From Salinisphaera orenii subsp. halophila YIM 95161 (GTDB lineage: Bacteria > Pseudomonadota > Gammaproteobacteria > Nevskiales > Salinisphaeraceae), in the NCBI RefSeq assembly GCF_003732545.1, contig NZ_AYKF01000074.1, positions 1 through 47,282 of the forward strand: 47,282 nt of DNA, read 5' to 3'. Below are positions 17,364 through 40,552 of the stretch, piece by piece. Under the pieces are notes generated by a model, which saw only the letters and a program-made list of their open reading frames with translations, made no database searches and was not told the DNA's origin. How positions within the stretch are numbered: position 1 is the first letter of the stretch; the number at the start of each line of letters is the position of its first letter. A program made the position numbers and the translations under genes.

Positions 17364-17378
17364 TGAAACTGTGTTTCG
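17364..17378. promoter_or_regulatory. Operator-like palindrome, site 1 (TGAAACTGTGTTTCG)
   Basis: Near-perfect inverted repeat GAAAC-N3-GTTTC, 67 bases upstream of the SDR start. It fits the published PsrA-type pattern (G/C)AAAC-N2-4-GTTT(G/C). It is the best-matching member of a family repeated in this window. Confidence 0.65.
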
Positions 17379-17463
17379 CTTGGTGTAATTCCGTTGGCGG
17401 CCAGACCCGAACGGTCAGGTTGACGCCGTTCAGACGGCGAGGCGGCACCTTCAGGCTCGATAA

Positions 17464-17476
17464 GTATACTGTATAC
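17464..17476. promoter_or_regulatory. GTATAC-T-GTATAC palindromic element, copy 1
   Basis: Two GTATAC half-sites separated by one base in the middle of the divergent intergenic region. The core ACTGTATAC recurs at 30968 and in inverted form at 34508. It is likely an operator for a second regulator. Confidence 0.55.
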
Positions 17477-17748
17477 ATAAATAGGGCGCTGTCCAGCCCG
17501 CGCGCCCACTTGTCATCCTTCGGTCCTGCGATGCAGTCGGCGCAAAGTCGGCTGCCGGGGTCAACGCCCGCGGCGATCCCCGTACGCCATCGGATGCTTT
17601 CGAGACAGCGACTGACGCTGGCCGACTGTCTCCGGTCGGCCCGACGGTGCTGATCTAACGACGATAACGCGCCTGAAACGCTCTTTTGCAAGATGCAGCG
17701 ACTGTTGTCGGTGTGAGTGTCTTGTGCGAGAGACACCGATTCGGGAAG

Positions 17749-17763
17749 TGAAATGCGGTTTCA
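17749..17763. promoter_or_regulatory. Operator-like palindrome, site 2 (TGAAATGCGGTTTCA)
   Basis: Perfect outer arms TGAAA/TTTCA around five bases, 133 bases upstream of the acyl-CoA synthetase start. It is the same motif family as site 1, on the side facing the synthetase-liv operon. Confidence 0.6.
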
Positions 17764-17895
17764 AAATACAGTTGACGCCCGTGGGGTGGCGTGGCAGCTT
17801 TGATCGAAACAAGCATAACCAGCGATGGCGGCCCGGGCACTGCGACCCGATAAAACAACAGCCCGCCCATCGTCGATATGAGGAGGAGAGTCGCG

Positions 17896-19572
17896 ATGGC
17901 GGAGCGTCACGTGTCCGCTTGGCCGGCGGGATTGCCACGGCATCTCAGTCTGCCGAGAACGAGCCTGTACACCAATCTCGAGATATCGGCGCGCCGGTAT
18001 CCCGATCAGCCGGCCATCGTTTACTACGGTCGCGTTCTGACCTACGCCGAACTGCATGACGAGGTCGAGGCGCTGGCGGGGCAGCTCCGGCATCTCGGTG
18101 TGGCCCGCGGCGATCGCGTGCTGCTGTTCATGCAGAACGCGCCGCAGTTCGTGATCGGCTACTACGCCATCCTGCGCGCGGACGCGGTGGTCGTGCCGGT
18201 CAATCCCATGAACCGTACCGCCGAACTCGGCCATTACCTGGCCGACACGCAGGCCGCGGTCTGTCTCTGTGGCCAGGAGCTGTTCGATGCGATCGAGCCG
18301 CTGCTGGGCACCGAGGCCCTGACCGACGTCATCGTAACGGCCTATCGCGACTACATCGACCCGCGCGCCGACCTGGACTTGCCGGCCGAAGTCGCCGCGC
18401 CGCGCCGGGCCCTGGAGCGCGCCGGTGTGATCGATTGGCGAGAGGCGATCGCAGCCGGGCACACGCCCGGGACACACACCGCCGGGCCGCAGGATCTGGC
18501 CGTGTTGCCTTACAGTTCGGGCACCACCGGGGCGCCCAAGGGCTGCATGCACACCCACGCCTCGGTGATGGCGACCTGCGTGCACGGCGCCCACTGGATG
18601 CACAGCACCACGGAGTCGGTCACCCTCGCGACGCTGCCGTATTTCCATGTCACGGGCATGCAGGGCGCGATGAACTCGCCGATCTACGGCGGCGCCACCA
18701 TCGTTCTGATGACGCGCTGGGACCGGCGCACCGCGGCCCGCCTGATCGAGCGCCATCGCGTGACCAACTGGACCAACATCGTGACCATGGCCATCGATCT
18801 GCTCTCCGATCCCGAGATCGATCGCTACGACCTGTCCAGCCTGAACAACATCAGCGGCGGCGGGGCGGCGATGCCCGAGGCCGTCTCCGACAAGCTCATG
18901 GCGCTCACGGGGCTGCGCTACATGGAGGGCTACGGTCTGTCCGAGACGATGGCGGCCACGCACATCAACCCGCCGGATGCGCCCAAGAAGCAGTGTCTGG
19001 GCATTCCGGTGTTCGACGTGGACTCGCGCATCATCGATGTGGATACCGGCGCGGAGCTGGGCGTGGGCGAGGTCGGCGAGATCGTCAGCCGCGGCCCGCA
19101 GCTGTTCTCCGGCTACTGGAACCGGCCGGAGGAGACCGAGGCCGCCTTCATCGAACTCGACGGTGCCCGCTTCTTCCGTACCGGCGATCTGGGCTATGTC
19201 GACGCAGACGGCTATTTCTTCATCGTCGACCGCGTCAAGCGGATGATCAACGCCTCCGGCTACAAGGTCTGGCCGGCCGAGGTCGAGGCGCTGATGTACG
19301 GCCACCCGGCCATCCGCGAGGCCTGCGTGATCTGCACCCCGGACCCGCGGCGCGGCGAGACCGTCAAGGCCTGCGTGGTGCTGGCCGAGGGCGCCGATCC
19401 GGTGACGCCCGAACAGATCATCGCCTGGTGCCAGCAGACCATGGCCGCCTACAAGGTGCCGCGGATGGTGGAGTTCCGGGACGCGCTGCCGCGTTCGGCC
19501 ACGGGCAAGGTGATGTGGCGGGTGCTCCAGGAAGCCGAATACGACAACAGCGGCGCCGGCGCCACGGCCTAG
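17896..19572 (+). CDS. AMP-forming acyl-CoA synthetase (paralogue A)
   Basis: 558 aa from the ATG at 17896, which has an AGGAGGAG site 7 bases upstream; an in-frame ATG at 17878 lies before that site. It activates a carboxylic acid to its CoA thioester through an acyl-adenylate. Motifs: phosphate-binding YSSGTTGAPKG (206-216), GYGLSE (345-350), RTGDLGY around 428-434, DRVKRMINASGYKVWP (445-460), and the C-terminal PRSATGKVMW with the catalytic lysine. It begins the operon that continues with livHMGF and the binding protein, so it probably activates what that importer brings in. A second, very similar copy lies at 38849-40513. Confidence 0.95.
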   Translation: MAERHVSAWPAGLPRHLSLPRTSLYTNLEISARRYPDQPAIVYYGRVLTYAELHDEVEALAGQLRHLGVARGDRVLLFMQNAPQFVIGYYAILRADAVVVPVNPMNRTAELGHYLADTQAAVCLCGQELFDAIEPLLGTEALTDVIVTAYRDYIDPRADLDLPAEVAAPRRALERAGVIDWREAIAAGHTPGTHTAGPQDLAVLPYSSGTTGAPKGCMHTHASVMATCVHGAHWMHSTTESVTLATLPYFHVTGMQGAMNSPIYGGATIVLMTRWDRRTAARLIERHRVTNWTNIVTMAIDLLSDPEIDRYDLSSLNNISGGGAAMPEAVSDKLMALTGLRYMEGYGLSETMAATHINPPDAPKKQCLGIPVFDVDSRIIDVDTGAELGVGEVGEIVSRGPQLFSGYWNRPEETEAAFIELDGARFFRTGDLGYVDADGYFFIVDRVKRMINASGYKVWPAEVEALMYGHPAIREACVICTPDPRRGETVKACVVLAEGADPVTPEQIIAWCQQTMAAYKVPRMVEFRDALPRSATGKVMWRVLQEAEYDNSGAGATA

Positions 19573-19656
19573 AGGATGCGGCCGCGAGCGTCGCGGCGAC
19601 GACAATGACAGGAGCGCCGGCGGGCGCCATCGTCGTGAATCGGAGGAGAAACGAGT

Positions 19657-20520
19657 TTGGAACAGTTCATACAGCAGATCCTCAACGGCCTGACGCTGGG
19701 CAGCATCTACGGGCTGGTGGCCCTGGGGCTGACCCTGGTGTACGGCATTCTGCACGTGCCCAACTTCGCCCATGGCGCGCTCTATATGGTGGGGGCATAC
19801 GTGTGCTACTTCGCCATGGTCGAGCTCGGCCTGAACTACTGGGTCGCCATGGCGGCCGCGGCCGCGGTGGTGGCGCTGCTGTCGGTGCTCTGCGAGCGGC
19901 TGGTGTTTCATCCGCTGCGCCACGCGCCGCCGATTCACGACAAGATCGCGGCCATCGGCATCCTGCTGTTTCTCGAGGCGGTGGTGCAGATGCACTGGGG
20001 GGCGGACTTCCGCCGCATACCCACGCCCTATACCGAGATCCTGCGCCTGGGCGAGCTCACGCTGCCGGCCCAGCGCCTGCTGATCATCGGCGGCGCGTTC
20101 GCGCTGATGGGGGCGCTGCATCTGTATCTGAAAAAGACCATGACCGGGCTGACCATCATCGCCATGGCGCAGAACCGTGAAGGCGCCTTCCTGGTCGGCA
20201 TCGACGCCAATCGGGTGGCGATGATGACCTTCGCGATCGCCGGGGCGCTGGCCGCGATCGCCGCGAGTCTGTTCGCGCCGATCAATCTCGTCTACCCGGC
20301 GATGGGGCATCTGGTACTGCTCAAGGCCTTCGTGATCATCATTCTCGGCGGCATGGGCAGCATTCCGGGCGCGATCATCGGCGGTCTGATCATCGGCTTC
20401 GCCGAAGCGCTCGGCGGTTTCTACATCTCGAGCACATACAAGGACGTGATCGCCTTTGTGCTGCTGGTCGTGATCCTGTCGATCAAGCCCACCGGCCTGT
20501 TCACCAAGGGGGTCCGCTGA
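19657..20520 (+). CDS. livH: Branched-chain amino acid-type ABC transporter permease (LivH family)
   Basis: 287 aa from a TTG codon with GGAGGAG 8 bases upstream. No better start exists, and the family N-terminus (FIQQILNGLTLGSIYGLVALGLTLVYG) begins right there. It is an inner-membrane permease with about eight hydrophobic segments. The loop GGMGSIPGAIIGGLIIGFAE is the usual ATPase-contact region. It overlaps livM by one base. LivH-type systems import branched amino acids, but many relatives in catabolic clusters carry aromatic or short carboxylates. The adjacent CoA ligase favours a carboxylate here. Confidence 0.93.
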   Translation: MEQFIQQILNGLTLGSIYGLVALGLTLVYGILHVPNFAHGALYMVGAYVCYFAMVELGLNYWVAMAAAAAVVALLSVLCERLVFHPLRHAPPIHDKIAAIGILLFLEAVVQMHWGADFRRIPTPYTEILRLGELTLPAQRLLIIGGAFALMGALHLYLKKTMTGLTIIAMAQNREGAFLVGIDANRVAMMTFAIAGALAAIAASLFAPINLVYPAMGHLVLLKAFVIIILGGMGSIPGAIIGGLIIGFAEALGGFYISSTYKDVIAFVLLVVILSIKPTGLFTKGVR

Positions 20521-21563
20521 TGAACCGTGCCATCGACTTCTTCCTGAGTTCGACCATGCGCTGGCTACTGCTGGCCCTGGCGGTCGTGTTTCCACTGGTG
20601 GTCACGAGTGAGTATCTCGTTTACGTGATGGCGCTGGCCTTCGTCTGGGCCATCGCGGTCTACGGGATGAACATCATCACCGGCTACTGCGGCCAGCTGA
20701 ATCTGGCCCACGGCGGCTTCTTCGCCATCGGCGCCTATACCGTCGCGATCCTGACCGTCGATCACGGTTGGCCCTTCTGGCCGGCGTTTGCGATGGCGGG
20801 CGTGTTCGGCGCGGTCTTCGGATTACTGGTCGGCGTGGTGTCGCTGCGGCTCAAGGAGCATTATTTCGCCATCTTCACGTTGTCCGTCGGCTACATCATC
20901 TATCTGTTGATCGACAAGTGGGAGGAACTCACCCACGGCTCGCTCGGCATCATCAACATCGCGCCACCGGAAGGCTTCGGCCTGGTCGATTTCACCGAGA
21001 CCGTGCCGTTCTATTACCTGGTGCTGGCCTTTCTCGTGTTCGCGATATGGGTCACGCGACGGATTTCGGAATCGCTGCTCGGGCGGACCTTCCGCGCGAT
21101 CCGCATCAGCGACGATCTGGCCCAGTCGCTGGGCATCAATCTGATGCGCAACAAGATCCTGGCGTTCGTGATCTCCACGGTCTACGCGGCCTTCGCTGGC
21201 GGGCTCTATGCGGGTGTGGTGCGCTTCATCGGTCCGGAGCAGGCGAACTTCATCCACACCTTCGACATGATCGCCTACCTGCTGGTCGGCGGCTTTGGCA
21301 CGCTCATGGGGCCGCTCGCCGGTACGCTCATCATCACCTGGCTCACCCAGGCGGTGCAGGGGCTCGAGGAGTACCGGATGATCGTGTTCGGGCCGATGCT
21401 CGTGCTGCTGGTCATCTTCTTTCCGAAAGGGCTGGTGGGCACCTTCCTGAGCTGGCGGGGCCGCCGCCTGGCGCGCCAGGCGCCGCGCGGCACCCGCGAG
21501 CCCCGTACGGGCGCCTCGGAGCCGGCGGCCGATCAATCGCAGGGAGCGCGCAACAATGCTTGA
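20520..21563 (+). CDS. livM: Branched-chain amino acid-type ABC transporter permease (LivM family)
   Basis: 347 aa. It is the second permease of the importer, with multiple hydrophobic segments and the family motifs GMNIITGYCGQLNLAHGGFFAIGAY near the N-terminus and GGFGTLMGPLAGTLIITWL near the C-terminus. The start overlaps the livH stop by one base (TGATG), and the end overlaps livG by 8 bases. The C-terminal 35 residues after the last membrane segment are charged and probably cytoplasmic. Confidence 0.93.
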   Translation: MNRAIDFFLSSTMRWLLLALAVVFPLVVTSEYLVYVMALAFVWAIAVYGMNIITGYCGQLNLAHGGFFAIGAYTVAILTVDHGWPFWPAFAMAGVFGAVFGLLVGVVSLRLKEHYFAIFTLSVGYIIYLLIDKWEELTHGSLGIINIAPPEGFGLVDFTETVPFYYLVLAFLVFAIWVTRRISESLLGRTFRAIRISDDLAQSLGINLMRNKILAFVISTVYAAFAGGLYAGVVRFIGPEQANFIHTFDMIAYLLVGGFGTLMGPLAGTLIITWLTQAVQGLEEYRMIVFGPMLVLLVIFFPKGLVGTFLSWRGRRLARQAPRGTREPRTGASEPAADQSQGARNNA

Positions 21564-22320
21564 TATCCGCAACCTCACCAAGCGCTTCGGCGGTCTCGCC
21601 GCGGTCAACGACGTGAGCGTCGAGTTCCCGGCGAACCAGATCAACGCCATCATCGGTCCGAACGGCGCCGGCAAGACCACGTTCTTCAACCTCGTGGCCG
21701 GCGCGATGGCGCCGACCGAGGGCGTGATCGAGTACAAGGGCCGGAACCTGGCCGGCGAGGCGCCGGATGCGATCGCCCGTCTGGGTGTCGCACGCACGTT
21801 CCAGACCACGATGCTGTTCGAGGAATCCACAGTCCTCGACAACCTCATCGTCGGCCATCGGCTGCGCACCGGCTCGAACCTCTGGGACGTCATAGTCAAT
21901 TCCAGGCGCCTGAAGGCGGACGAGAAGCGCTGCCGCGAAAAGGCTGCCGAGACGCTTGAGTTCGTGGGTCTGTCGCACATCGGCCATCGCTACATCGCCG
22001 ATACCAGCCAGGAGGAGCGCAAGCGCGTCGCCTTCGCGCTGGCCCTGGCCACCGACCCGGAGCTGGTACTGCTCGACGAGCCGGCCGGCGGGGTGAATCC
22101 TGAGGAGACCGACGGGCTCATCAACCTGATCCACAAGATGGTCGAACACGGCGTCACCGTCTGCCTGATCGAACACAAGATGGACATGATCATGCGCATC
22201 GCCGACAAGATCATCGTGCTGGATCACGGCGAGAAGATATCCGAAGGCACGCCGGACGAGGTCAAGAACGATCCGGTCGTCATCGAAGCCTACCTGGGGA
22301 AGGAAGATGCTGAAGCTTGA
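21556..22320 (+). CDS. livG: ABC transporter ATP-binding protein (LivG family)
   Basis: 254 aa ATPase of the importer. Walker A is GPNGAGKT (34-41), Walker B with catalytic glutamate is LVLLDEP, and the switch histidine is in IEHKMD (206-207). The ABC signature is atypical: where LSxGQ is expected the sequence reads DTSQEERKRVAF (149-160). The next gene begins inside its end (14-base overlap), consistent with coupled synthesis of the two ATPases. Confidence 0.92.
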   Translation: MLDIRNLTKRFGGLAAVNDVSVEFPANQINAIIGPNGAGKTTFFNLVAGAMAPTEGVIEYKGRNLAGEAPDAIARLGVARTFQTTMLFEESTVLDNLIVGHRLRTGSNLWDVIVNSRRLKADEKRCREKAAETLEFVGLSHIGHRYIADTSQEERKRVAFALALATDPELVLLDEPAGGVNPEETDGLINLIHKMVEHGVTVCLIEHKMDMIMRIADKIIVLDHGEKISEGTPDEVKNDPVVIEAYLGKEDAEA

Positions 22321-23014
22321 GGGCGTCGACGCCAAGTACGACAGTTTCAAGGCGCTGGACGGCATTTCGATGTCGGTCGAGCCCGGCGAGCTGGTGGTGC
22401 TGCTGGGTGCCAACGGCGCTGGCAAGACCACTCTGTTCAACACCATCAGCGGCCTGATGAAACCGGCCGCCGGGCGTATCACCATTGATGGCAAGGACGT
22501 GACCGGGCGCAAACCTTCGGCGCTGGTCGCCGCGGGCGTGGTCCAGTGCCCGGAGGGGCGCAAGCTGTTTCCCGGCATGTCCGTGCTCAAGAATCTGCGC
22601 CTGGGCGGCTATGTGCACCGGCGCGATCGTGCCGGCATGAACAGGACGCTGGAGCAGGTGCTCGCGATGTTCCCGATTCTCGATGAGAAGAAGGACGAGC
22701 CAGCCGGTTCGCTCTCCGGCGGCCAGCAGCAGATGGTGGCGGTCGGGCGTGCGCTCATGGGCCGGCCCAAGCTGCTGATGCTCGACGAGCCGTCGCTCGG
22801 TCTGGCGCCGCTGGTGGTCAAGCAGGTCTTCGAGCGGGTGGAGCAGATCAACGCCGAAGGCACCACGATCCTGCTGGCCGAACAGAACGCCTACGCCGCG
22901 CTCAAGATCGCCAACCGGGCCTACGTGATCGAGAACGGCCGCCTGACCATGCAGGGCGACCGCGAGGAAATGCTCGGCAACGAAGCCGTGCGCAAGGCCT
23001 ATATCGGCGCGTGA
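22307..23014 (+). CDS. livF: ABC transporter ATP-binding protein (LivF family)
   Basis: 235 aa ATPase, the partner of LivG. Walker A GANGAGKT lies at 34-41, a standard LSGGQQQM signature in the middle, Walker B LLMLDEPSLGLAP follows, and AEQNAYAAL holds the switch region. All motifs are canonical, in contrast to LivG, so at least one fully standard ATP site pair element is retained. It ends 76 bases before the binding-protein gene. Confidence 0.93.
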   Translation: MLKLEGVDAKYDSFKALDGISMSVEPGELVVLLGANGAGKTTLFNTISGLMKPAAGRITIDGKDVTGRKPSALVAAGVVQCPEGRKLFPGMSVLKNLRLGGYVHRRDRAGMNRTLEQVLAMFPILDEKKDEPAGSLSGGQQQMVAVGRALMGRPKLLMLDEPSLGLAPLVVKQVFERVEQINAEGTTILLAEQNAYAALKIANRAYVIENGRLTMQGDREEMLGNEAVRKAYIGA

Positions 23015-23090
23015 TGCCGTCTGGCCGAGCGCGCGTATCGAATCAACCGCTGTACACAACCAACCCTGGATAGAGAGGGGGAGATCAGAG

Positions 23091-24263
23091 ATGACATTCA
23101 CCAAGACAATCCGCCGCGTGGCGGCGGCCACCGCCCTGGCCATGGGCCTCGCCGGCGGCGCGCATGCCGCTGAAACCGTCAATATCGGCTTCACCGGGCC
23201 ACTGTCCGGCGGCGCGGCGCTCTACGGCGAGAACACGCTCGAGGGTCTGCGCATGGCCGTCGAGGAGATCAATGCCGACGGCGGCATCGATGTCGACGGC
23301 ACGCAGTACGAGATCAACATCGAGAGTCTCGACGACATGTATTCGCCCAGCCGTGCGGCGGTCAACGGCAAGCGCCTGGTCCAGCAGTCCAACACGCCGG
23401 TGGTCTTCACGCCGCATTCGGGCGGCACCTTTGCGCTACAGGCCTTTAACGAGCGCGACGGCTTCCTGATCATGTCCTACACCTCGATCCCCTCGGTGAC
23501 CGAGAAGGGCAACGAACTCACGGTCAAGATTCCGCCGAACTTCACCGACTACGTCGAGCCGTTCACCAAGATCACGATGGAACGCTTCGGCAAGAAGCTC
23601 GGCGTGGCCAACGCCACCCACGACTACGCCAAGTACTGGACCAAGGCGTTCGTGCCGGCCTGGGAAGAGGCCGGTGGTGAGGTCGTGGCGAGCAACCCGA
23701 TGGACTACAACAAGTCCGCGGATTTCTACACCGGCGTGAGCAAGGTGCTGTCGGCCGATCCGGACGTGCTGTTCGTCGGCGGGGCTTCCGAGCCCACCGG
23801 TCTGGTGATTCGCCAGGCCCGCGAACTCGGCTTCGAGGGCGGTTTCGTCATCATGGATCAGGCCAAGATCGACGAGGTGGCCGAAGTGGCCGGCGGCATG
23901 GACGCGGTCGAGGGTGCGGTGGGCGTGACCCCGCTCGCGCATTCGGACAATCCGGGTGCCGCGGACTTCGTCGAGAAGTACAAGCAGGGGCACGACAACG
24001 TCGCCACGTCGGAGACCGCCTACAACTACTTTGCCATGCATCTGGTCGCCCGGGCGATGGAACAGGCGGGCACCGTCGACGACCCGGCCGCGATCCGGAA
24101 GGCGATTCCCGAAGCGCTGGCCGACATCCCGGCCGAGTACAATCCCTACGATGTGCAGGAGATCAGCGACGACGGCGATCTGATCATCGACGCCGAGGTG
24201 GCCGAGGTGGTCGACGGCGAGATTGAGCTTCGCCGCATCTCGGATCTCCAGGACGACGACTGA
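23091..24263 (+). CDS. Periplasmic substrate-binding protein of the Liv-type ABC importer
   Basis: 390 aa with a Sec signal peptide: positively charged start, hydrophobic stretch, likely cleavage after AHA at residue 26. The mature protein starts ETVNIGFTGPLSGGAALYGENTLEG, typical of the type I periplasmic fold of the LivK/branched-chain group. It has a good ribosome site (GAGAGGGGGAGA). It is the last gene of the synthetase-liv operon, with a terminator 25 bases downstream. The ligand cannot be read from the sequence; the operon suggests a carboxylate or acyl compound. Confidence 0.93.
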   Translation: MTFTKTIRRVAAATALAMGLAGGAHAAETVNIGFTGPLSGGAALYGENTLEGLRMAVEEINADGGIDVDGTQYEINIESLDDMYSPSRAAVNGKRLVQQSNTPVVFTPHSGGTFALQAFNERDGFLIMSYTSIPSVTEKGNELTVKIPPNFTDYVEPFTKITMERFGKKLGVANATHDYAKYWTKAFVPAWEEAGGEVVASNPMDYNKSADFYTGVSKVLSADPDVLFVGGASEPTGLVIRQARELGFEGGFVIMDQAKIDEVAEVAGGMDAVEGAVGVTPLAHSDNPGAADFVEKYKQGHDNVATSETAYNYFAMHLVARAMEQAGTVDDPAAIRKAIPEALADIPAEYNPYDVQEISDDGDLIIDAEVAEVVDGEIELRRISDLQDDD

Positions 24264-24287
24264 ACGCGTCCGGTGCAAGGACCGACG

Positions 24288-24313
24288 AGGAGCACCTGCG
24301 GGTGCTCCTTTTC
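24288..24313 (+). terminator. Rho-independent terminator of the liv operon
   Basis: A 9-bp perfect stem (AGGAGCACC at 24288-24296 and GGTGCTCCT at 24301-24309) with loop TGCG, running into a T-rich end (CCTTTTCG). It closes the acyl-CoA synthetase-liv operon. Confidence 0.92.
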
Positions 24314-24372
24314 GTTGAGTGATCGGCGATCGCCGTCCGGCGGCGACCGCCCGCAGCCATGAGGACGCAGCA

Positions 24373-25404: not shown

Positions 25405-25417
25405 CCGGACCACGCCC

Positions 25418-29605: not shown

Positions 29606-30793
29606 CTAGCCGCGCGGCAGTTCGAGTACGTGGGCGGCCACGATGTCGAGCATGATCTCCGAGGTGCCGCCCTCGATCGAGTTGCCCTTCGAGCGCAGCC
29701 ACTCGCGGGCGTACTGGCCGCCGTGGGTGCGTTCGCCTTCCCACTCGAGCGCTTCCGCGCCCATGACGTCCATCATCAGGTCGTAGCGGCGCTTGTTCAG
29801 TTCGGTGCCGTAGTACTTGAGCATGGCCGAGCGCGCGCCGACGCCCTGGCCGGCCTCGGCCCGGGCGCGCACGTCGTCGACCAGGGCGCGAAAGGCCATG
29901 GCGTCGATCTCCAGGCCGGCGATGTCGTGGCGCAGTGATGGGGCGTCGATGCGGCCCTCGGCGTCGGCGCCGATCGCGGCCAGCGCCATCGTGCCGAGAT
30001 CGCGCCCCTTGAGCAGCCCCGGCGGTTCGCCGCCGATGTTCTCGCGCTCGTGGGTGAGCAGATACTTGGCTATCGTCCAGCCCTGATTGAGTTCGCCGAC
30101 CAGGTTCTCGCGCGGGACCGACACATCGTCGAAGAACGTCTCGCAGAAGGGGGACTCGCCGGAGATCAGCTGGATCGGGCGGGTGGATACGCCCTCGCTT
30201 TCCATATCCAGCAGCAGGAAGGAGATGCCGGCCTGCTTGCGGGCGTCCGGATCGGTGCGCACCAGGCAGAACATGCAGTCGGCGCGGTCGGCGTAGGAGG
30301 TCCAGATCTTGCGGCCGTTGACCACGAAATCATCATCATGGGCTTCGGCGCGGGTCTGCAGGCTGGCCAGATCGGAGCCGGCGCCCGGTTCGGAATAGCC
30401 CTGGCACCAGCGGATCTCGCCGCGGGCGATCGCGGGCAGGTGGCGGCGTTTCTGGGCTTCGGAGCCGAACTTGAGCAGGGCGGGGCCGAGCATCCAGAAG
30501 CCGAAGTTGCTGACCGGTGTGCGCGCACCGATGCGGGCCATCTCCTCGCGGAGAACCGCGTGTGCCTCGGGCGAGAGGCCGGCGCCGCCGTATTCGACCG
30601 GCCATTCGGGCGCGGTCCAGCCCTTCGCGGCCATGCGCTCCAGCCAGAGGCGCTGGGCCTCGGAGGCGAAGACCCAGCGCCGGCCGCCCCAGACGTGATC
30701 GTCGGCCGACCGGACCGGTTCGCGCATGGCATCCGGACAGTTGGCGGCCAGCCAGTCGCGCACGTCCATGCGCCAGGCCTCGAGCTCGGCCAT
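29606..30793 (-). CDS. Acyl-CoA dehydrogenase, large-subunit type
   Basis: 395 aa from the ATG at 30793, which has a strong GGAGGAG site. An ATG at 30808 adds five residues but lacks a ribosome site and touches an operator-like palindrome. Family segments: WPVEYGGAGLSPEAHAV, the FAD-binding WCQGYSEPGAGSDLASL, FVVNGRKIWTSYAD, and the C-terminal GNSIEGGTSEIMLDIVA. It probably pairs with the small-subunit gene at 28331. The control region upstream holds a 23-bp perfect palindrome. Confidence 0.93.
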   Translation of the reverse strand: MAELEAWRMDVRDWLAANCPDAMREPVRSADDHVWGGRRWVFASEAQRLWLERMAAKGWTAPEWPVEYGGAGLSPEAHAVLREEMARIGARTPVSNFGFWMLGPALLKFGSEAQKRRHLPAIARGEIRWCQGYSEPGAGSDLASLQTRAEAHDDDFVVNGRKIWTSYADRADCMFCLVRTDPDARKQAGISFLLLDMESEGVSTRPIQLISGESPFCETFFDDVSVPRENLVGELNQGWTIAKYLLTHERENIGGEPPGLLKGRDLGTMALAAIGADAEGRIDAPSLRHDIAGLEIDAMAFRALVDDVRARAEAGQGVGARSAMLKYYGTELNKRRYDLMMDVMGAEALEWEGERTHGGQYAREWLRSKGNSIEGGTSEIMLDIVAAHVLELPRG

Positions 30794-30807
30794 GGTCTCC
30801 TCCGTCA

Positions 30808-30830
30808 TTTTTGAAATAGTATTTCAAAAA
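30808..30830. promoter_or_regulatory. 23-bp perfect palindrome, operator site 3
   Basis: Arms TTTTTGAAATA and TATTTCAAAAA around a single central G. Its core TGAAATAGTATTTCA belongs to the recurring TGAAAC family. It lies 15 bases upstream of the acyl-CoA dehydrogenase ATG at 30793, a position where a bound repressor would block transcription initiation or elongation. Confidence 0.7.
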
Positions 30831-30967
30831 GTATGTTTAATCGCGTCTGCGCGCGTCAAGAAGGTGGCGGTCGCGCACCGGATCCGGTCGTCTCGTGATC
30901 GTTGCGGCGCCGCGCCCGACACGACCGCCAAGCAGTCGGCCCGCGACGCAGGGCGACTGATTTGGGT

Positions 30968-30978
30968 GTACTGTATAC
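30968..30978. promoter_or_regulatory. GTACTGTATAC element, copy 2
   Basis: Shares the ACTGTATAC core with 17464-17476 and, inverted, with 34505-34520. It directly abuts a CCGAATA/TATTCGG inverted repeat. Confidence 0.5.
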
Positions 30979-31185: not shown

Positions 31186-31212
31186 TTCAGTGCAGATAAC
31201 AACAGAAATAAC

Positions 31213-31227
31213 CGAAACGCCGTTTTG
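31213..31227. promoter_or_regulatory. Operator-like site 4 (CGAAACGCCGTTTTG)
   Basis: Imperfect member of the GAAAC-N3-GTTT family, about 205 bases upstream of the iclR start. Confidence 0.4.
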
Positions 31228-31432
31228 TTTTTCTGACAGTATTAAGACTACAAAATCAGAAACGTGGGCCGCGGCCGCGGCGATGTCCGAGCGCCGGAGC
31301 CGACGAACACGATCGACGACCGCTGGCGAGTGGCTCGATTTGTACGTAGTGTTCCGCCAGGCAACAGGCGGCGGCTCGTCGAGTCCGCCACGGCGTAGCC
31401 GTTCGGCGGCGCCGAGTGCAGGAGTGGGGTGA

Positions 31433-32275
31433 ATGCAGCGAAGCAATCCGGATGCGGCCCAGGCCGAAGACAACAAGAAGAACCACAACTACGTCACCGC
31501 GCTGGCGCGGGGCCTGGAACTGCTGCGCTGTTTCGGCGACGCGGACGAATATCTGGGCAACGCGGAGCTTGCCAAGCGCACGCACATACCGCGGCCGACG
31601 GTCTCGCGCCTCACGGCCACGCTCATGCAGCTCGGCTATCTGGTCTACATGCCGCACATCGAGCGCTATCGCCTGGGCCCGCGGGTGCTCGATCTGGGCT
31701 ACCGCTATCTGGCCAGCGAGGGCGTCGGCACGATCGCCCGGCCGCTGATGCAGGAGCTCGCCGATGCGACCGACTGCTTCATCGCCATCGGCGTCGCCGA
31801 AGGCATCCAGATGACCTACACCCAGACCTGCCAGGGGCCGGGGCCGCTGATCCTGCGCATGAGCACGGGCTCGCGCGTGCCGATCGCGCACACCTCGATC
31901 GGCCGGGCCTTTCTCGCTGCCCTGACGCCGGAGCAGCGCGAGCCCTATTACGCGCTGATCCGCGCCGAGGAGCCGGCCGAATGGCCGCGGATCGAGCGCG
32001 GTCTGGAGCGCACCTTCGCCGACTACGAGCGCGACGGTTTCTGTATCACCGAGGGCGAATGGAGCCGGGAGGTCAGCGGCGTGGGCGTGCCGCTGGTGCT
32101 CGAGAACGGCTATCGCGTGGTCTCGTTCGGCTGCAGCGGCTCCGCCCTGCGCCTGACCCAGCGCGTGATGAGTGAAAACCTCGGCCCGCGGCTGCGCGAC
32201 ATGGTCGGACAGGTTCGACAGCTGGTCGATGGCGCCGATGGCGCCGCCAATCGCGACCTGACGACGCGGGCGTAA
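31433..32275 (+). CDS. IclR-family transcriptional regulator
   Basis: 280 aa. The winged helix-turn-helix is at about 20-82 (VTALARGLELLRCF, then NAELAKRTHIPRPTVSRLTATL), followed by the IclR effector domain with the usual IAHTSIGRAFLAAL segment. IclR regulators bind small organic acids and control catabolic operons. It heads a short plus-strand unit with a thioesterase and faces the acyl-CoA dehydrogenase pair across a dyad-rich region. It is a candidate reader of the palindromes seen around this cluster: the IclR member KdgR uses a GAAA-N6-TTTC box, close to but one base longer than the element here. Confidence 0.93.
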   Translation: MQRSNPDAAQAEDNKKNHNYVTALARGLELLRCFGDADEYLGNAELAKRTHIPRPTVSRLTATLMQLGYLVYMPHIERYRLGPRVLDLGYRYLASEGVGTIARPLMQELADATDCFIAIGVAEGIQMTYTQTCQGPGPLILRMSTGSRVPIAHTSIGRAFLAALTPEQREPYYALIRAEEPAEWPRIERGLERTFADYERDGFCITEGEWSREVSGVGVPLVLENGYRVVSFGCSGSALRLTQRVMSENLGPRLRDMVGQVRQLVDGADGAANRDLTTRA

Positions 32276-32304
32276 CCGTTTCCATTTCCACGACCGACAC
32301 TGCC

Positions 32305-32763: not shown

Positions 32764-32801
32764 ACGGCGCGGTCACGCGCGCGACCGGCGTCACGGCGCG
32801 A

Positions 32802-33296: not shown

Positions 33297-33309
33297 GGGC
33301 GGCTACCGC

Positions 33310-34440: not shown

Positions 34441-34507
34441 CATGAACCTCCTCCGGTTCGCTTGGATCGTTCTGGAAATCGGATGCTCTGTCGGCATCTC
34501 GTTCGTG

Positions 34508-34517
34508 CTGTATACAG
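34508..34517. promoter_or_regulatory. CTGTATACAG palindrome, copy 3 of the GTATAC element
   Basis: A perfect 10-bp palindrome within the near-palindrome GTGCTGTATACAGTAC (34505-34520), between the divergent TAXI receptor and acyl-CoA dehydrogenase genes. It matches the ACTGTATAC cores at 17464 and 30968. Confidence 0.55.
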
Positions 34518-34604
34518 TACCCGGTAGGCGGTTGCAAGATACGGGCTGGGCGCACGGATCGGCCGGGCCTTTTTGGAGGCCTCGTGCTCTCGGCCGCGCC
34601 TTGA

Positions 34605-34619
34605 TGAAACTGCGTTTTA
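34605..34619. promoter_or_regulatory. Operator-like site 5 (TGAAACTGCGTTTTA)
   Basis: Member of the TGAAAC-N3-GTTT family, 115 bases upstream of the acyl-CoA dehydrogenase start at 34734, in the same intergenic region as a GTATAC element. Confidence 0.5.
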
Positions 34620-34733
34620 CAAAATTGACGACCGGGGGCGCCTGTGTCAGGTTGCCTGCCGACTACAACAACCGACCGGCCGCCGGAGGACTCCCGCGGC
34701 GGCCCGGCATGCGTTCTGCACAGGAGATTGCCC

Positions 34734-35951
34734 ATGCTGCCGCTATCCGAGCGCGCCGAAGCGCTGCGTTCCCAGTTGCTCGCGTTCATGGACGCGCACG
34801 TCTATCCCGCCGAGGCGGTCCACGCGCGTCAGCAGGCGGAGGCGACGGATCGTTGGACGCCGCCGCCGATCCTCGACGAGCTCAAGGCCAAGGCGCGCGC
34901 GGAAGGGCTCTGGAATCTGTTCCTGCCGGAAAGCGAGTACGGCGCCGGGCTGTCGAACTACGACTACGCCCATCTCTGCGAGATCATGGGCCGCAGCCCG
35001 ATCGCGCCCATCGTGTTCAACTGCAGCGCGCCGGACACCGGCAACATGGAGGTCCTGGCGCGCTACGGCAGCGAGGCCCAGCAGCGCCAGTGGCTCACGC
35101 CGCTGCTCGAGGGCGAGATCCGGTCCTGTTTCTCCATGACCGAGCCGGACGTGGCTTCCTCGGATGCGACCAACATCCGGACCGAGATCCGGCGCGACGG
35201 CGACGATTACGTCATCAACGGCCGCAAGTGGTGGTCCTCGGGCGCGATGGCCAGCAACTGCAAGATCGCCATCGTCATGGGCAAGACCGATCCGTCGGCG
35301 GCCAAGCATCAGCAGCAGTCGATGATCCTGGTGCCGCTGGACACGCCGGGCGTGAATATCGAGCGGCCCCTGCACGTGTTCGGCTACGACCACGCGCCCA
35401 AGGGCCACGCCGAGATCCACTACGACGACGTGCGCGTGCCCGCCGACAATCTCATTCTCGGCGAGGGCCGCGGTTTCGAGATCGCCCAGGGCCGGCTCGG
35501 GCCGGGACGCATTCACCACTGCATGCGCACCATCGGTGTCGCCGAGCGGGCGCTGGCGGCGATGTGCGCCCGCGTCGAGGAGCGCGTCAGCTTCGGCCGT
35601 CGTCTGGCCGAGTTCGACTCCATCCGCAAGGAGATCGCGCGCTCGCGGATCGAGATCGACCAGGCGCGGCTGATGACGCTCAACGCCGCGCAGATGATGG
35701 ACGAGGTCGGCAACAAGGCCGCCCGTCAGGAGATCGCCATGATCAAGGTGATCGCCCCGGAAATGGCGCTGCGCGTGCTCGACCGGGCCATCCAGGCGCA
35801 CGGGGCCATGGGCGTGTGCCAGGACAGTTTCCTGGCCTCGGCCTGGGCTAACGTGCGCACCCTGCGTCTGGCCGACGGCCCCGACGAGGTGCATCTGGAC
35901 ACCATCGCCAAGCTCGAGCTGCGTGCGCAGCAGAGCGCGGCCGCGCAGTGA
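34734..35951 (+). CDS. ACAD10/11-like acyl-CoA dehydrogenase (LvaC-like)
   Basis: 405 aa from the ATG at 34734 with AGGAG upstream; the frame continues 5' only as read-through. The type is recognised from [61 protein letters not shown] and the C-terminal [20 protein letters not shown], all typical of ACAD11-type proteins. In the levulinate pathway LvaC of this type converts a 4-phospho-acyl-CoA to an enoyl-CoA. The next genes are an SDR and an APH-type kinase, which match LvaD and LvaA. A role in 4-hydroxyacyl-CoA catabolism is therefore the leading guess, not ordinary chain dehydrogenation. Confidence 0.93.
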
Positions 35952-35991
35952 CGCACTGCCCGGCGGCCAGCTACAACAAGAGGAGTTCTCG

Positions 35992-36756
35992 ATGATGAAT
36001 CTGTTCGACATGCAGGATCGCGTGGCCGTGATCACCGGATCCAGCCGCGGCATCGGCCGCGCCATCGCGCGCCAGATGGCCGCCCACGGCGCGAAGGTGG
36101 TCATTTCCAGCCGCAAGGCCGAGGCCTGCGAGGCGGTCGCGGCGGAGCTGCGCGACGAGGGCTTCGAGGCGATCGCGGTGGCCTGCCACATCGGTGACAA
36201 GGCGCAGCTGCAGGGCCTGGTCGACGCCACCCTGGCGGCCTACGGCCGTATCGACGTGCTGGTTTGCAACGCCGCGACCAATCCGGTCTACGGCCCCACC
36301 GCGGACATGACCGACGAGGCCTGGGACAAGATCATGGAAACGAACGTGCGCGGCACGTTCTGGCTGTGCAACATGGTGCTGCCGAAGATGGCCGAGGCCG
36401 GCGGCGGTCGCGTCATCGTGCTGTCGTCGATCGCCGGTCTGCGCGGCAACACCGTGATCGGAACCTACGGCGTGTCCAAGGCCGCCGAGGCCGCCCTGGT
36501 GCGCAATCTGGCGGTCGAGTGGGGCCCGTCCAACATCCGCGTGAACGCGATCGCGCCGGGTCTGGTGCGCACCGATTTCGCCAAGGCGCTGCTGGAGGAT
36601 CCCAAACGTCTCGAGCAGGCCGAGCAGCGCACGCCCGTGCGCCGTATCGGCGAGCCCGACGACATCGCGGGCGTGGCGGTGTTTCTGGCCACCGACGCCA
36701 GCGCCTACGTCACCGGCCAGACCCTCGTCGCCGACGGCGGCGAAACCATCAGCTGA
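35992..36756 (+). CDS. Short-chain dehydrogenase/reductase (LvaD-like position)
   Basis: 254 aa. It starts at the ATG at 35992, 6 bases after AGGAG; a second ATG follows directly. The nucleotide-binding motif is TGSSRGIG (15-22), and the catalytic Ser146, Tyr159 and Lys163 are all present (YGVSK). Arg41 after the second strand (ISSRK) suggests NADP(H). It has NAAT in place of the usual NNAG. It lies between the LvaC-like dehydrogenase and the APH kinase and ends 2 bases before the kinase start, indicating one operon. Confidence 0.92.
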   Translation: MMNLFDMQDRVAVITGSSRGIGRAIARQMAAHGAKVVISSRKAEACEAVAAELRDEGFEAIAVACHIGDKAQLQGLVDATLAAYGRIDVLVCNAATNPVYGPTADMTDEAWDKIMETNVRGTFWLCNMVLPKMAEAGGGRVIVLSSIAGLRGNTVIGTYGVSKAAEAALVRNLAVEWGPSNIRVNAIAPGLVRTDFAKALLEDPKRLEQAEQRTPVRRIGEPDDIAGVAVFLATDASAYVTGQTLVADGGETIS

Positions 36757-36758
36757 CC

Positions 36759-37838
36759 GTGGCGGTGTCCGACGGCGGTGCGCCCGAGCTGGTCCCGGTG
36801 CGCGAGGCGCACCGCTTCGACGAGGCAGCGCTGCGTGCCTATCTGGCGTCGCACGATCTGCTGGGCGAGACCTTCAGGCTGTCGCAGTTCCAGGGCGGCC
36901 AGTCCAACCCCACGTTCTTCATCGAGACCGGCACGGCGGCCGATCCGCGCCACTACGTGCTGCGCAAGCAGCCGCCGGGCGAGATCCTGCCGTCGGCCCA
37001 TCGCATCGACCGCGAATACCGGGTGATGGCGGCGCTGGCCGACGCGCCGGGCGTGCCGGTGCCGACCATGCACTGCTACTGCGACGATGCCGCGGTGATC
37101 GGCACGCCGTTCTACGTCATGGACTACGTGCCCGGGCGGGTGTTCGGCGATCCGGCGTTGCCGGCGCTGGACCCCGACGACCGCGGCGGTGTCTATCACG
37201 CGCTGATCGACAGCATGGCCGCGCTGCACGGCGTGGACGTCGAGGCCGTCGGCCTGTCCGATTTCGGCCGGCCGAACGGCTACGTCGAGCGCCAGATCCG
37301 GCGCTGGCGCAGCCAGTACGAGGCCTCGGCCACCGAAACCGACGCCAACATGGATGCCCTGGGCGCCTGGCTGGCCGATCACGTGCCCGCCGACGACGCG
37401 CCCGCCATCGCCCACGGCGATTTCCGCATCGGCAATCTGCTGCTGGCGCCGGAGGCACCGCGGGTGGCCGCGATCCTGGACTGGGAGCTGGCCACCATCG
37501 GTCACCCGCTGGCCGATCTCGCCTACGCCTGCATGCCCTATTATCTGCCGCACGGGGTCGAGGGCGTACGCGGCATCGAGGGGCTGGACCTGGCCGCGGC
37601 CGGCATCCCGACCGAGGCCGAACAGCTGGCGCGCTATCGCGAGCGTCGCGGTCTCGGGTCGATCGACGACTGGCCGGTATTCGTGGCCTTCGCCCTGTTC
37701 CGGACGGCGGCCATTCTCCAGGGCGTCTACGCCCGGGCCCTGGCCGGCAACGCCAGCAACCGCGATGCGCTGACCGTGGGTCGACGCGCGGGGCTGATCG
37801 CCGAGCGCGGCTGGGCGGTCGCGAAAAGCCATGACTGA
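36759..37838 (+). CDS. APH-fold acyl-CoA kinase (ACAD10/11 N-domain-like, LvaA-like)
   Basis: 359 aa from GTG at 36759; a second in-frame GTG at 36765 is equally possible. The fold is aminoglycoside-phosphotransferase-like. Seen are GGQSNPTF (46-53), Lys70 in YVLRKQPPG, the catalytic loop AHGDFRIGNLLL with Asp221 and Asn226, and the metal-binding Asp241 in DWELATIGHPLADLAY. This exact pattern marks the kinase domain fused to ACAD in human ACAD10/11 and the separate LvaA protein, which phosphorylate the 4-hydroxyl of acyl-CoAs. It should not be read as an antibiotic-resistance gene. Confidence 0.9.
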   Translation: MAVSDGGAPELVPVREAHRFDEAALRAYLASHDLLGETFRLSQFQGGQSNPTFFIETGTAADPRHYVLRKQPPGEILPSAHRIDREYRVMAALADAPGVPVPTMHCYCDDAAVIGTPFYVMDYVPGRVFGDPALPALDPDDRGGVYHALIDSMAALHGVDVEAVGLSDFGRPNGYVERQIRRWRSQYEASATETDANMDALGAWLADHVPADDAPAIAHGDFRIGNLLLAPEAPRVAAILDWELATIGHPLADLAYACMPYYLPHGVEGVRGIEGLDLAAAGIPTEAEQLARYRERRGLGSIDDWPVFVAFALFRTAAILQGVYARALAGNASNRDALTVGRRAGLIAERGWAVAKSHD

Positions 37839-37900
37839 GGGCGCAGTGTACGGCGGCGATCGGGTAGGCTGCGCCGGGCAGCCATCAACCGCGTGATTCC

Positions 37901-38704
37901 ATGACAGCCTTTCCGCGCATTCTCGTGACCAATGACGACGGCATCGACGCCCCCGGCCTGGTCGAGGCCGAGCGGATCGCGGCCGCGCTGGCCGACGAAG
38001 TCTGGACCATCGCGCCGCTGGGCGACCAGAGCGGCGTCGGTCAGGGCATCTCCATGCACCAGCCGCTGCGGCTGTCGCGCTACGGCGAGCGCCGCTATGC
38101 GGTGTCGGGCACGCCCGCGGACTGCGTGATGTACGCGATGGCGGAGTTCTTCGCCGACGAGCCGCCGGACCTGGTGCTGTCCGGGGTCAACTGGGGCGCG
38201 AACCTGTCCGACTCGGTGATGTACTCGGGCACGGTCGGGGCGGTCCTGGCGGCCAACCACCTGGGCATCGACGCGATCGCGCTCAGCCAGGCATTCCACG
38301 CCCGCAGCGCGGTCGACTTCGCGGTCACCCGTGCCTTCGCGGTGCCGGCGATCGAGACGCTCGCGGCGCGCCGGTCGGCCGACGGCAGCTGTTGCTGGAA
38401 CGTCAATTTCCCCATGCAGGCGGTCGAGAGCGTGCGCGGGCTGCGCTTCACCCGCCAGGTCGGTGGGGCGATCCGGGCGCCGCAGCTCATTGCGGGCGCG
38501 GACGGCCGCGGTCTGGCCTATCACTGGCTGAGCTTCGAGCGCGATACCGGTGCCATCAGCGCCGCGGATGCCGACGTGGTCGCCCTGCGCGATCACTGGG
38601 TCTCGGCCATGCCGCTGCACGGCACGCGCTGCGACGAAGCGCTGTTCCAGCGCGCGTCGGCCGAAGGCGAGCATCGGCTGCAGCCGGCGGCCGAATCCGC
38701 CTGA
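37901..38704 (+). CDS. SurE-family 5'/3'-nucleotidase or phosphatase
   Basis: 267 aa. Metal-binding and catalytic residues of SurE are all visible: Asp12-Asp13 in VTNDDGIDAPG, Ser44 in DQSGVGQG and Asn97 in SGVNWGANLSDSVMYSGTVGAA-like context. SurE removes phosphate from nucleoside monophosphates and, in E. coli, from short polyphosphate. The usual surE neighbours (pcm, rpoS, truD) are absent. Here it is embedded after an acyl-CoA kinase and before an acyl-CoA synthetase, so the phosphatase may serve that pathway. The specific substrate is unknown. Confidence 0.92.
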   Translation: MTAFPRILVTNDDGIDAPGLVEAERIAAALADEVWTIAPLGDQSGVGQGISMHQPLRLSRYGERRYAVSGTPADCVMYAMAEFFADEPPDLVLSGVNWGANLSDSVMYSGTVGAVLAANHLGIDAIALSQAFHARSAVDFAVTRAFAVPAIETLAARRSADGSCCWNVNFPMQAVESVRGLRFTRQVGGAIRAPQLIAGADGRGLAYHWLSFERDTGAISAADADVVALRDHWVSAMPLHGTRCDEALFQRASAEGEHRLQPAAESA

Positions 38705-38725
38705 CCGCGTCGATACGCGAAAAAT

Positions 38726-38740
38726 TGAAACAGTATTTCG
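38726..38740. promoter_or_regulatory. Operator-like site 6 (TGAAACAGTATTTCG)
   Basis: Strong member of the palindromic family, between surE and the second acyl-CoA synthetase, 109 bases upstream of the synthetase start. It implies a separate promoter for the synthetase. Confidence 0.62.
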
Positions 38741-38848
38741 AAAACCGTTGACGCGCCGGTACGGCGGTGCGACAGTCAGGCACCGCCCGGCCCGGCACGC
38801 CGCACCAGGAGCCTCCGGGTTTGCTGGACGACGAGGAGACCGCACGCC

Positions 38849-40513
38849 ATGTTCGATCGGCACCATGCGGTGTGGCCGGATCGCCTGCCGCATCATCTGC
38901 CGCTGCCGCAGACCAGCCTGTTCACGAATCTCGCGATCTCGGCGCTGCGCTATCCCGCGCGTGATGCGCTGATCTACTACGACACGCCGCTGACCTACGC
39001 CGAGCTCGAGCGCCAGGTGCTGGCACTCGCCGGCTATCTGCAGGCCCGTGGCGTGGCCCGCGGTGACCGGGTGCTGCTCTACATGCAGAACGCGCCGCAG
39101 TACGTGGTGGCCTACTACGCGATCCTGCGCGCGGACGCGGTGGTGGTGCCGGTCAACCCGATGAACCGCGCCGCGGAACTGGAACACTACGCCGACGACA
39201 CCGGCGCGTCGCTGTGCATCTGCGGCCAGGAGCGCCTGGCCGACGTGCAGCCGCTGTGCACGGCGGACCGGCTGGACGAGATCATCGTCACCGCCTACAG
39301 CGAGTACGCCACCCGGGCCACGGATCTGGATCTGCCGACGGAGGTCGCGGCCCCGTTCGAGGCGCCGACGGCCGCGGGCGTGACCGCCTGGCGCGACGCG
39401 CTGGCGGCCGGCCACGAACCGGGTCCGCACACCGCGGCCCCGGACGATCTGGCGGTACTGCCCTACAGCTCCGGCACCACCGGCCAGCCCAAGGGCTGCA
39501 TGCACACGCATGCCAGCGTCATGGCCACGGCCGTGCACAGCGTGGTCTGGGGCAGCGGCACCGCGGAGACCGTCACGCTGGCCAGCCTGCCGTACTTCCA
39601 TGTCACCGGCATGCAGAACGGCATGAACGCGCCGATCTACGCCGGCGCCACGGTGGTCATCATGACGCGCTGGGACCGGCGTACCGCCGCGGAGCTGATC
39701 CAGCGCTATCGCATCCGCCGCTGGACCAACATCGTGACGATGGCGATCGACATGCTCTCGGATCCGGAGATCGAGCGTTTCGACCTGTCCAGCCTGACCT
39801 ATATCGGCGGCGGCGGCGCGGCCATGCCCGAGGCCGTCTCCGAGAAACTGTTCAAGCTGACCGGCCTGCGCTATATCGAGGGCTACGGTCTGAGCGAGAC
39901 CATCGCGGCGACCCATATCAATCCGGTCGACGCGCCCCGCGCCCAGTGCCTGGGCGTGCCGGTGTTCGACGTCGACTCGCGCATCGTCGACACCACCACC
40001 CAGGCCGAGCTCGGCGTCGGCGAGGTCGGCGAGATCGTGGTTCGCGGACCGCAGGTCTTCGCCGGCTACTGGAATCGGCCGACCGAGACCGCCGAGGCCT
40101 TCATCCCGCTCGACGGCGCCGACTTCTTCCGGACCGGCGACATCGGCTATTACGACGAGAACGGCTATTTCTTCATCGTCGACCGCGTCAAGCGGATGAT
40201 CAACGCCTCCGGCTACAAGGTGTGGCCGGCCGAGGTCGAGGCGCTGATGTATCGCCATCCCGACATTCGCGAGGCCTGCATCATCTCGACGCCGGACCCG
40301 CGCCGCGGCGAGAGCGTCAAGGCCTGTGTGGTGCTGGAGGCCGAGGCGAGCGCCGACGAAGCCGCGATCCTGGCCTGGTGTCGCGAGAACATGGCCGCCT
40401 ACAAGGTCCCGCGCGAGATCGAACTCTGCGAGGCGCTGCCGCGCTCGCCGACGGGCAAGGTCATGTGGCGTCATCTGCAGGAACAGGCCTGGGCCGATTC
40501 GGCCGACGCCTGA
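38849..40513 (+). CDS. AMP-forming acyl-CoA synthetase (paralogue B)
   Basis: 554 aa. It has the same domain order and motifs as the copy at 17896: YSSGTTGQPKG, GYGLSE, FFRTGDIGYY, DRVKRMINASGYKVWP and a C-terminal PRSPTGKVMW with the catalytic lysine. The two proteins are alike over their whole length, and some DNA stretches are nearly identical. It begins the unit that continues with the hydratase/dehydrogenase fusion and an acyl-CoA dehydrogenase pair. That order recalls the dicarboxylate pim operon (PimA ligase with PimF, PimC and PimD). Substrate range cannot be set from sequence. Confidence 0.95.
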   Translation: MFDRHHAVWPDRLPHHLPLPQTSLFTNLAISALRYPARDALIYYDTPLTYAELERQVLALAGYLQARGVARGDRVLLYMQNAPQYVVAYYAILRADAVVVPVNPMNRAAELEHYADDTGASLCICGQERLADVQPLCTADRLDEIIVTAYSEYATRATDLDLPTEVAAPFEAPTAAGVTAWRDALAAGHEPGPHTAAPDDLAVLPYSSGTTGQPKGCMHTHASVMATAVHSVVWGSGTAETVTLASLPYFHVTGMQNGMNAPIYAGATVVIMTRWDRRTAAELIQRYRIRRWTNIVTMAIDMLSDPEIERFDLSSLTYIGGGGAAMPEAVSEKLFKLTGLRYIEGYGLSETIAATHINPVDAPRAQCLGVPVFDVDSRIVDTTTQAELGVGEVGEIVVRGPQVFAGYWNRPTETAEAFIPLDGADFFRTGDIGYYDENGYFFIVDRVKRMINASGYKVWPAEVEALMYRHPDIREACIISTPDPRRGESVKACVVLEAEASADEAAILAWCRENMAAYKVPREIELCEALPRSPTGKVMWRHLQEQAWADSADA

Positions 40514-40537
40514 GTGCACGGCGCTTGTTCTGCTTGG

Positions 40538-40552
40538 TAAAACAAGATTTCG
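40538..40552. promoter_or_regulatory. Operator-like site 7 (TAAAACAAGATTTCG)
   Basis: Weaker member of the same family, 112 bases upstream of the hydratase/dehydrogenase fusion start. Confidence 0.45.

Follow-up and report, generated by a model that had tools for sequence, protein, structure and literature searches.

A conserved palindrome at acyl-CoA gene promoters of Salinisphaera as the probable operator of a local IclR-family regulator

The regulators of fatty-acid degradation named in the consulted part of a survey of Proteobacteria belong to two protein families, GntR for FadR and TetR for PsrA and FadP (PMC5343134). For the IclR family, two operator types were defined by Suvorova and Gelfand 2021 (PMC8222616), the second of which, group 2, follows TGRAACAN1-2TGTTYCA and comprises sites of the KdgR, IclR and AllR type. 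The passages concerned describe group 2 regulons in which neighbouring operons are regulated and Liv transporter subunits occur among the co-regulated sets, and which mainly serve aromatic compounds, sugar acids forming another set; the terms “Salinisphaera”, “fatty acid” and “acyl-CoA” are absent from the main text of that paper. Published consensuses of the KdgR operator are AAATGAAACAnTGTTTCATTT (PMC5559549) and RWWGAAACGNCGTTTCAKKA (PMC8222616). We analysed here a stretch of 47,282 nucleotides (the window; contig NZ_AYKF01000074.1, 67% GC) from the 3.79 Mb genome of Salinisphaera orenii subsp. halophila YIM 95161, in which seven copies of a 15-base palindrome (the boxes) are scattered through a cluster of acyl-CoA catabolic genes that also encodes an IclR-family protein. 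These boxes are very probably the operators of this protein, which would act as a local regulator of the cluster.

The form of the box in the window and in related genomes, TGRAAY-N3-RTTYCA, shares with the group 2 sites its palindrome arms and its odd-length spacing, while the consensus A and T flanking the centre are hardly conserved in Salinisphaera (0.28 bits per position). The targets differ, being acyl-CoA genes rather than the aromatic-compound and sugar-acid genes of the described regulons. The KdgR operator TGAAAC-N3-GTTTCA has the arms and spacing of the box apart from C/T and G/A variation, a likeness of site and not of membership; the first-pass annotation of this DNA had seen a resemblance to KdgR except for spacing, a restriction to be dropped given that both KdgR consensuses have the identical three-base spacing. 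With PsrA, FadR and FadP the cluster has in common the type of target gene, and differs from them in the protein family of its proposed regulator. The novelty is the regulon and not the kind of regulator: to the known TetR and GntR regulons, a likely IclR-run acyl-CoA catabolic regulon is added. A literature search returned no paper containing both Salinisphaera and IclR, and none of the titles listed concerned the control of fatty-acid degradation by an IclR protein.

Each of the seven 15-mers listed by the first-pass annotation is found once in the window at exactly the start given there, and all are intergenic once three gene starts are corrected by eye (SDR at 17297, acyl-CoA dehydrogenases at 34734 and 30793). 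Taken literally, the pattern of its title, TGAAAC-N3-GTTTCA, has no exact match in the genome; TGAAAY-N3-RTTTCA describes the sites better, and was widened to the form given above once the relatives were included. Exact matches to TGAAAY-N3-RTTTCA occur at two places in the genome, both in the window (17749 and 30812). Allowing up to one mismatch yields 14 places, of which the window contains 5 against about 0.17 expected from its length; allowing up to two yields 125, of which it contains 6 against about 1.6 expected. Site 31213 fits only with three mismatches. Of nine one-mismatch places outside the window, eight lie inside stop-to-stop open reading frames (ORFs) of at least 100 codons, the remaining one being TGAAATAGTGATTCA at C106:18215 (L010 2001), near a contig end.

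With the window excluded, a matrix was built from 41 boxes found in eleven further genomes of Salinisphaera. These boxes were hand-picked from a pattern search in the relatives as non-coding matches with at most two mismatches adjoining a target class, so that some matches were left aside, among them the middle boxes of G010, G011 and G013, the EtfQO match in G004, the thiolase and SDR35923 matches in G002 and distal sites; G012, which has a near-identical IclR and identical composite sites (see below), was excluded from the training and from the loci fetched. Because the pattern used for the search was close to that of the first-pass annotation, this matrix cannot be regarded as fully independent in its origin. 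Scanned over the window, it places the seven sites at ranks 1 to 7, and the score of the weakest of them was reached on average 0.06 times, and at most once, in 100 order-1 Markov windows. Two proposed look-alikes, at 16443 and 9348, fall outside the top 20 scores and are not supported. The seven sites are one predicted operator family at acyl-CoA gene promoters; six of them stand upstream of beta-oxidation operons as had been claimed for all, and 31213 precedes the iclR gene.

The proposed box-binding protein (31433..32275, + strand, 280 aa) carries the HTH_IclR and IclR_C domains, with scores above cut-off for both PF09339 (62.4 bits) and PF01614 (56 bits). Its best NCBIfam match, PcaR/PcaU/PobR (TIGR02431), reaches 130.3 bits, below the cut-off of 284.75, and the KdgR model 50.2 bits, below 275. 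The protein is 100% identical to its counterpart in Salinisphaera orenii MK-B5, and 13 of 14 genus genomes encode a homologue, with 60-75% identity in 11 relatives and 100% in the near-duplicate G012. The recognition stretch PTVSR[LI]T[AS]TL is present in all 11 aligned relatives, and five of the matches contain a single TGA, which is the natural gene end, at about query residue 266-273. At E<=1e-75, a search of 369 genomes of the class matched only the own genome, G003 and G013; in this sample the orthologue looks genus-limited at that threshold.

A composite site, made of the box followed by TTGAY, was scanned for in 61 genomes. The own genome has five, four of them in the window. The 13 IclR-bearing genus genomes have 36; without G012, the other 12 have 31, of which 25 are in the cluster, G002 and G008 having none there. 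Three composite sites of G013, G008 and G002 away from the cluster (loci L088, L089 and L090) have no match to window proteins nearby. The 48 other genomes have 20, scattered and taken as background; an IclR match of 42-43% exists in G035 and G043, both of this group, and the loci around these weak matches hold no box at <=2 mismatches. The genus genome lacking the IclR gene, G001, has no composite site, and at E<=1e-60 the 34734 dehydrogenase finds no match in it. G015, from another genus, combines a 63% identical dehydrogenase with the absence of an IclR match at E<=1e-40, and its corresponding locus (L092) is free of boxes at <=3 mismatches. Within the genus the composite sites thus travel with the IclR gene, and this protein, named by the first-pass annotation as one possible binder among others, is the best candidate.

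The reverse comparison, in which a matrix from the seven window sites was scanned over upstream regions of at least 40 bases in the relatives' loci, found boxes at the orthologous promoters of SDR16512 (9/10), LivH (7/9), fadD2 (7/8) and the 34734 dehydrogenase (5/11). The check for matches in unrelated upstream regions that the first-pass annotation had suggested gave 0/83 for 17 other gene classes of these loci, some regions being short intra-operon gaps, and permuted matrices keeping the palindrome averaged no more than 0.13 matches per gene class over identical regions. Weaker classes were thiolase (2/7), etfQO (2/11), the FabK-like gene (1/4), fadD1 (1/2) and SDR35923 (1/9, after removal of one artefact); the thiolase match in G004 belongs to the distal 3-oxoadipyl-type thiolase and is not an orthologue. 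Two matches (FadB in G002, SDR35923 in G006) were discarded where the gene began at the end of the stretch and most of the locus was scored as promoter, and three of the SDR matches (G004, G011, G013) fall on the divergent LivH box of the shared intergenic region, in each of which the pattern search shows an SDR box as well. Each of the 11 relatives for which loci were retrieved has boxes. The conservation expected by the first-pass annotation is accordingly firm for 17364, 17749, 34605 and 38726 and weak for 31213 and 40538; for 30812 it is uninformative, since no separate orthologue of its dehydrogenase gene was identified in the loci of the relatives. Three genomes have three boxes each between SDR and LivH, 109-114 bases apart (G010, L082 19427, 19537 and 19651; G011, L084 10313, 10427 and 10536; G013, L086 8818, 8932 and 9043), the middle one of which could have a looping role.

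The position of the boxes relative to the promoter is also constrained. On the gene side, 32 of the relatives' 41 boxes are followed by TTGAC or TTGAT starting 3-8 bases further on, against 1/41 on the opposite side and a background of 42/2442 positions in seven intergenic pieces of the window. By class, the relatives have it at 11/11 SDR, 8/8 LivH, 9/9 dehydrogenase, 1/1 fadB, 0/1 iclR and 0/2 FabK/thiolase boxes, and the window at 5/7. The gap is 8 bases in 8/8 LivH promoters, and 6 or 7 in 12/12 SDR promoters, that of the window included. For 37 of the 48 boxes (41 from relatives and 7 from the window) the implied centre is at -46 to -51, a range that follows by construction from the 3-8 base spacing with a start assumed 7 bases after the -10; all 37 lie wholly upstream of the -35 and the other 11 are without such a promoter. 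The palindrome, as compared across these sequences, is shown at orthologous promoters of IclR-carrying genomes, many copies being nearly fixed just before the putative -35. The SDR promoters have a good -10, TAGAAT or TAAAAT (5/6 matches, 12/12 promoters, best at 16-18 bases), and the LivH/fadD1, dehydrogenase and fadD2 promoters (n=23) a best -10 at 16-18 bases that matches only 2-3 of 6 positions.

A box placed before the -35 has the layout that would be expected of an activator site, and the IclR protein is probably an activator acting at about -48 for most promoters. An IclR dimer would bind the palindrome and, at most promoters, where about 46-51 bases separate the box centre from the start, would recruit RNA polymerase; outside the SDR operon this would assist promoters with a poor -10. 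Recruitment may take place when a pathway intermediate, an acyl-CoA or a beta-keto acid, is bound to the protein. A box over the start region, as at 30812 and in the distal thiolase operon, would lead to repression instead. The latter operon bears the sole composite box of the own genome outside the window (C80:7716-7738, L030), which precedes a pair of genes for a 3-oxoadipyl-CoA thiolase (687.6 bits, above the cut-off of 622) and an acyl-CoA dehydrogenase; a similar site stands before a similar thiolase in G004 (L071 1192). This distal box adds a second likeness to PcaR/PcaU/PobR, the beta-ketoadipate regulators that are the best NCBIfam match of the window protein. In Ralstonia, loss of the IclR-family PcaR gave slight growth on glutarate, as reported in a passage of PMC12543098. 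That the protein takes the role of PsrA, FadR or FadP, holding acyl-CoA uptake, activation, beta-oxidation and ETF supply in one local regulon, activating at about -48 and repressing over the start in response to an acyl-CoA or beta-keto acyl ligand, is a tentative proposal. The analysis assigns a probable operator, a target set and a promoter geometry to an uncharacterised protein kept in all but one of the 14 genus genomes.

Several observations weigh against the assignment of the boxes to this protein. Four genomes that lack the IclR (G001, G014-G016) have 3-5 copies each of the bare palindrome TGRAAY-N3-RTTYCA, and its 46 copies in the eleven IclR-bearing relatives are divided into 26 in the cluster and 20 outside. 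The iclR promoter is boxed in 1/10 relatives, making auto-regulation weak, the FadB promoter (40538) in only 1/9 usable relatives (G004, one artefact removed), and in G006 and G008 the dehydrogenase lacks a box at <=2 mismatches. TTGAY stands at 3-8 bases from only 3/9 of the relatives' fadD2 boxes. Finally, the nearest named model, PcaR/PcaU/PobR, binds GTTCGAT-type group 1 sites according to the part of PMC8222616 consulted, unlike the group 2 form of the boxes.

Among the other explanations, repression at all promoters by the same IclR protein, relieved by a ligand, would agree with the boxes that by eye cover the start region (30812 and the distal C80 thiolase pair, a repressor position), with the good -10 of all 12 SDR promoters, and with the presence of repressors such as HmgR and IclR in the family; we consider it unlikely given the 37/48 boxes centred at -46 to -51 upstream of the -35 and the best -10 of only 2-3 of 6 for the 23 TTGAY-linked boxes outside the SDR and fadB classes. 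Searching the literature for IclR-family precedents of such an activator position gave nothing useful. Assignment of the boxes to another IclR-family protein is improbable, and slightly more so than the PsrA reading discussed below. The own genome encodes six IclR-like proteins at E<=1e-5, the window protein included, with like recognition stretches and with a 43%-identical paralogue on C90 as the closest copy; against this, a second 42-43% match at E<=1e-40 exists in only 3/14 genus genomes (own, G012, G004), and these three paralogue loci (3.8 kb) hold no box at <=2 mismatches, whereas the fetched loci of 11/11 relatives do. A chance or promoter-composition artefact could be imagined as the boxes are A/T-rich spots in a GC-rich window, but seven sites against 0.06 expected, the near-absence of matches to permuted matrices and the conserved spacing to the -35 leave this reading a negligible probability, and conservation strongly contradicts it.

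The first-pass annotation had likened the sites to the PsrA box. The arms GAAAC/GTTTC and the acyl-CoA targets do match PsrA, and the window DNA comes from a gammaproteobacterium. In several members of that class PsrA controls fatty-acid degradation (excerpt of PMC5343134), and the general form of its site allows N2-4, although the P. aeruginosa site is GAAAC-N4-GTTTC (excerpt of PMC13104628) and all seven window sites have N3. The spacing by itself leans against PsrA while being compatible with it; four of the five composite sites of the genome are in one cluster and these sites travel with the IclR gene in the genus; the near matches are likewise local to this cluster and not spread over the promoters of the genome. 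The TetR protein of the window (8459-9157) was rejected as the likely binder, having no match at E<=1e-15 in G002, G006, G008 and G010, all of which have boxes; none was found in G001 either, and matches of at least 64% identity are limited to 5/14 genus genomes (own, G012, G009, G011, G013). Pfam PF17939, the PsrA C-terminal domain, has no match in the own genome, but matched only Caulobacter among 14 control genomes; with so weak a control, its absence speaks neither for nor against PsrA. Binding by PsrA or another TetR-type fatty-acid repressor is on the whole improbable. What stands of the earlier interpretation is a common regulator with one operator family; PsrA gives way to the cluster's own IclR protein, most probably the regulator in question.

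The target runs of the IclR protein would be the following, their operon structure being predicted. Box CGAAACACAGTTTCA (17364..17378, - strand), read towards the SDR gene, stands 6 bases before the TTGACG-N16-TAGAAT of a run on the - strand (11545..17357) that comprises SDR (16512-17297, ORF to 17357), ETF-QO, EtfB, EtfA, MaoC and enoyl-CoA hydratase and whose orthologous promoters are boxed in relatives. Box TGAAATGCGGTTTCA (17749..17763, + strand) precedes by 8 bases the TTGACG of the fadD1-Liv run (17878..24263, + strand), which encodes a long-chain acyl-CoA ligase and a Liv-type ABC transporter with two permeases, two ATPases and a binding protein; in relatives this box is kept upstream of LivH. 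The same divergent SDR/fadD1 intergenic region holds the best further candidate, the weaker TGAAACGCTCTTTTG (17674..17688; matrix rank 8, score 13.8). Box TGAAATACTATTTCA (30812..30826, - strand) is just upstream of a PimC-like acyl-CoA dehydrogenase (29606..30808, - strand, likely start 30793; 271 bits, below cut-off) and has no TTGAC/T 3-8 bases downstream; by eye, it would lie at about -3 to +12 of a TTGACG-N18-CATACT promoter. The weak box CGAAACGCCGTTTTG (31213..31227, + strand; score 16.0, rank 6) is about 205 bases upstream of iclR. Box TGAAACTGCGTTTTA (34605..34619, + strand), 5 bases before TTGACG, is upstream of the acyl-CoA dehydrogenase starting at 34734 and an SDR (34734..36756, + strand), and box TGAAACAGTATTTCG (38726..38740, + strand), 7 bases before TTGACG, is upstream of fadD2, which with the FadB-like multienzyme and a PimC-like dehydrogenase forms the last proposed target set (38849..43952, + strand). 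Within this set, the weak box TAAAACAAGATTTCG (40538..40552, + strand; score 15.9, rank 7) stands upstream of fadB, 5 bases before TTGATC. The substrate of the cluster could be fatty, dicarboxylic or aromatic acids, any of which could fit the acyl-CoA ligases, the PimC/PimD-like dehydrogenases, the Liv-type ABC transporter and the TAXI binding protein.

Other elements are found in and around the cluster. The sequence GTATACTGTATAC, or one near it, occurs at 17464-17476, 30967-30978 and 34510-34520, in the SDR/fadD1, dehydrogenase/iclR and TAXI/dehydrogenase intergenic regions, and may be a second operator, conceivably that of the TetR protein; a single GTATAC is found at 9338-9343, before the FabK-like gene adjoining the TetR gene. 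A different palindrome, YGAACGATCGTTCR, of which the window has none, occurs in G003, G005, G007 and G009, near the IclR box of SDR and dehydrogenase promoters and also ahead of the FabK-like gene (L067 7095; L068 2067 and 2136; L072 16794 and 16874; L073 11905 and 19839; L076 1305 and 1374; L077 8307; L081 3627 and 7773; L096 4407). One of these copies, L081 7773, sits where surE ends (3' end) and precedes fadD2. The palindrome would be a second, lineage-specific operator, possibly of TetR type. At the beginning of the window (12-8440), Pfam identifies Type I-F CRISPR genes for Csy4, Csy3, Csy2, Cas3 with a Cas2 domain, and Cas1, the place of Csy1 being occupied by an ORF at 2575-3984.

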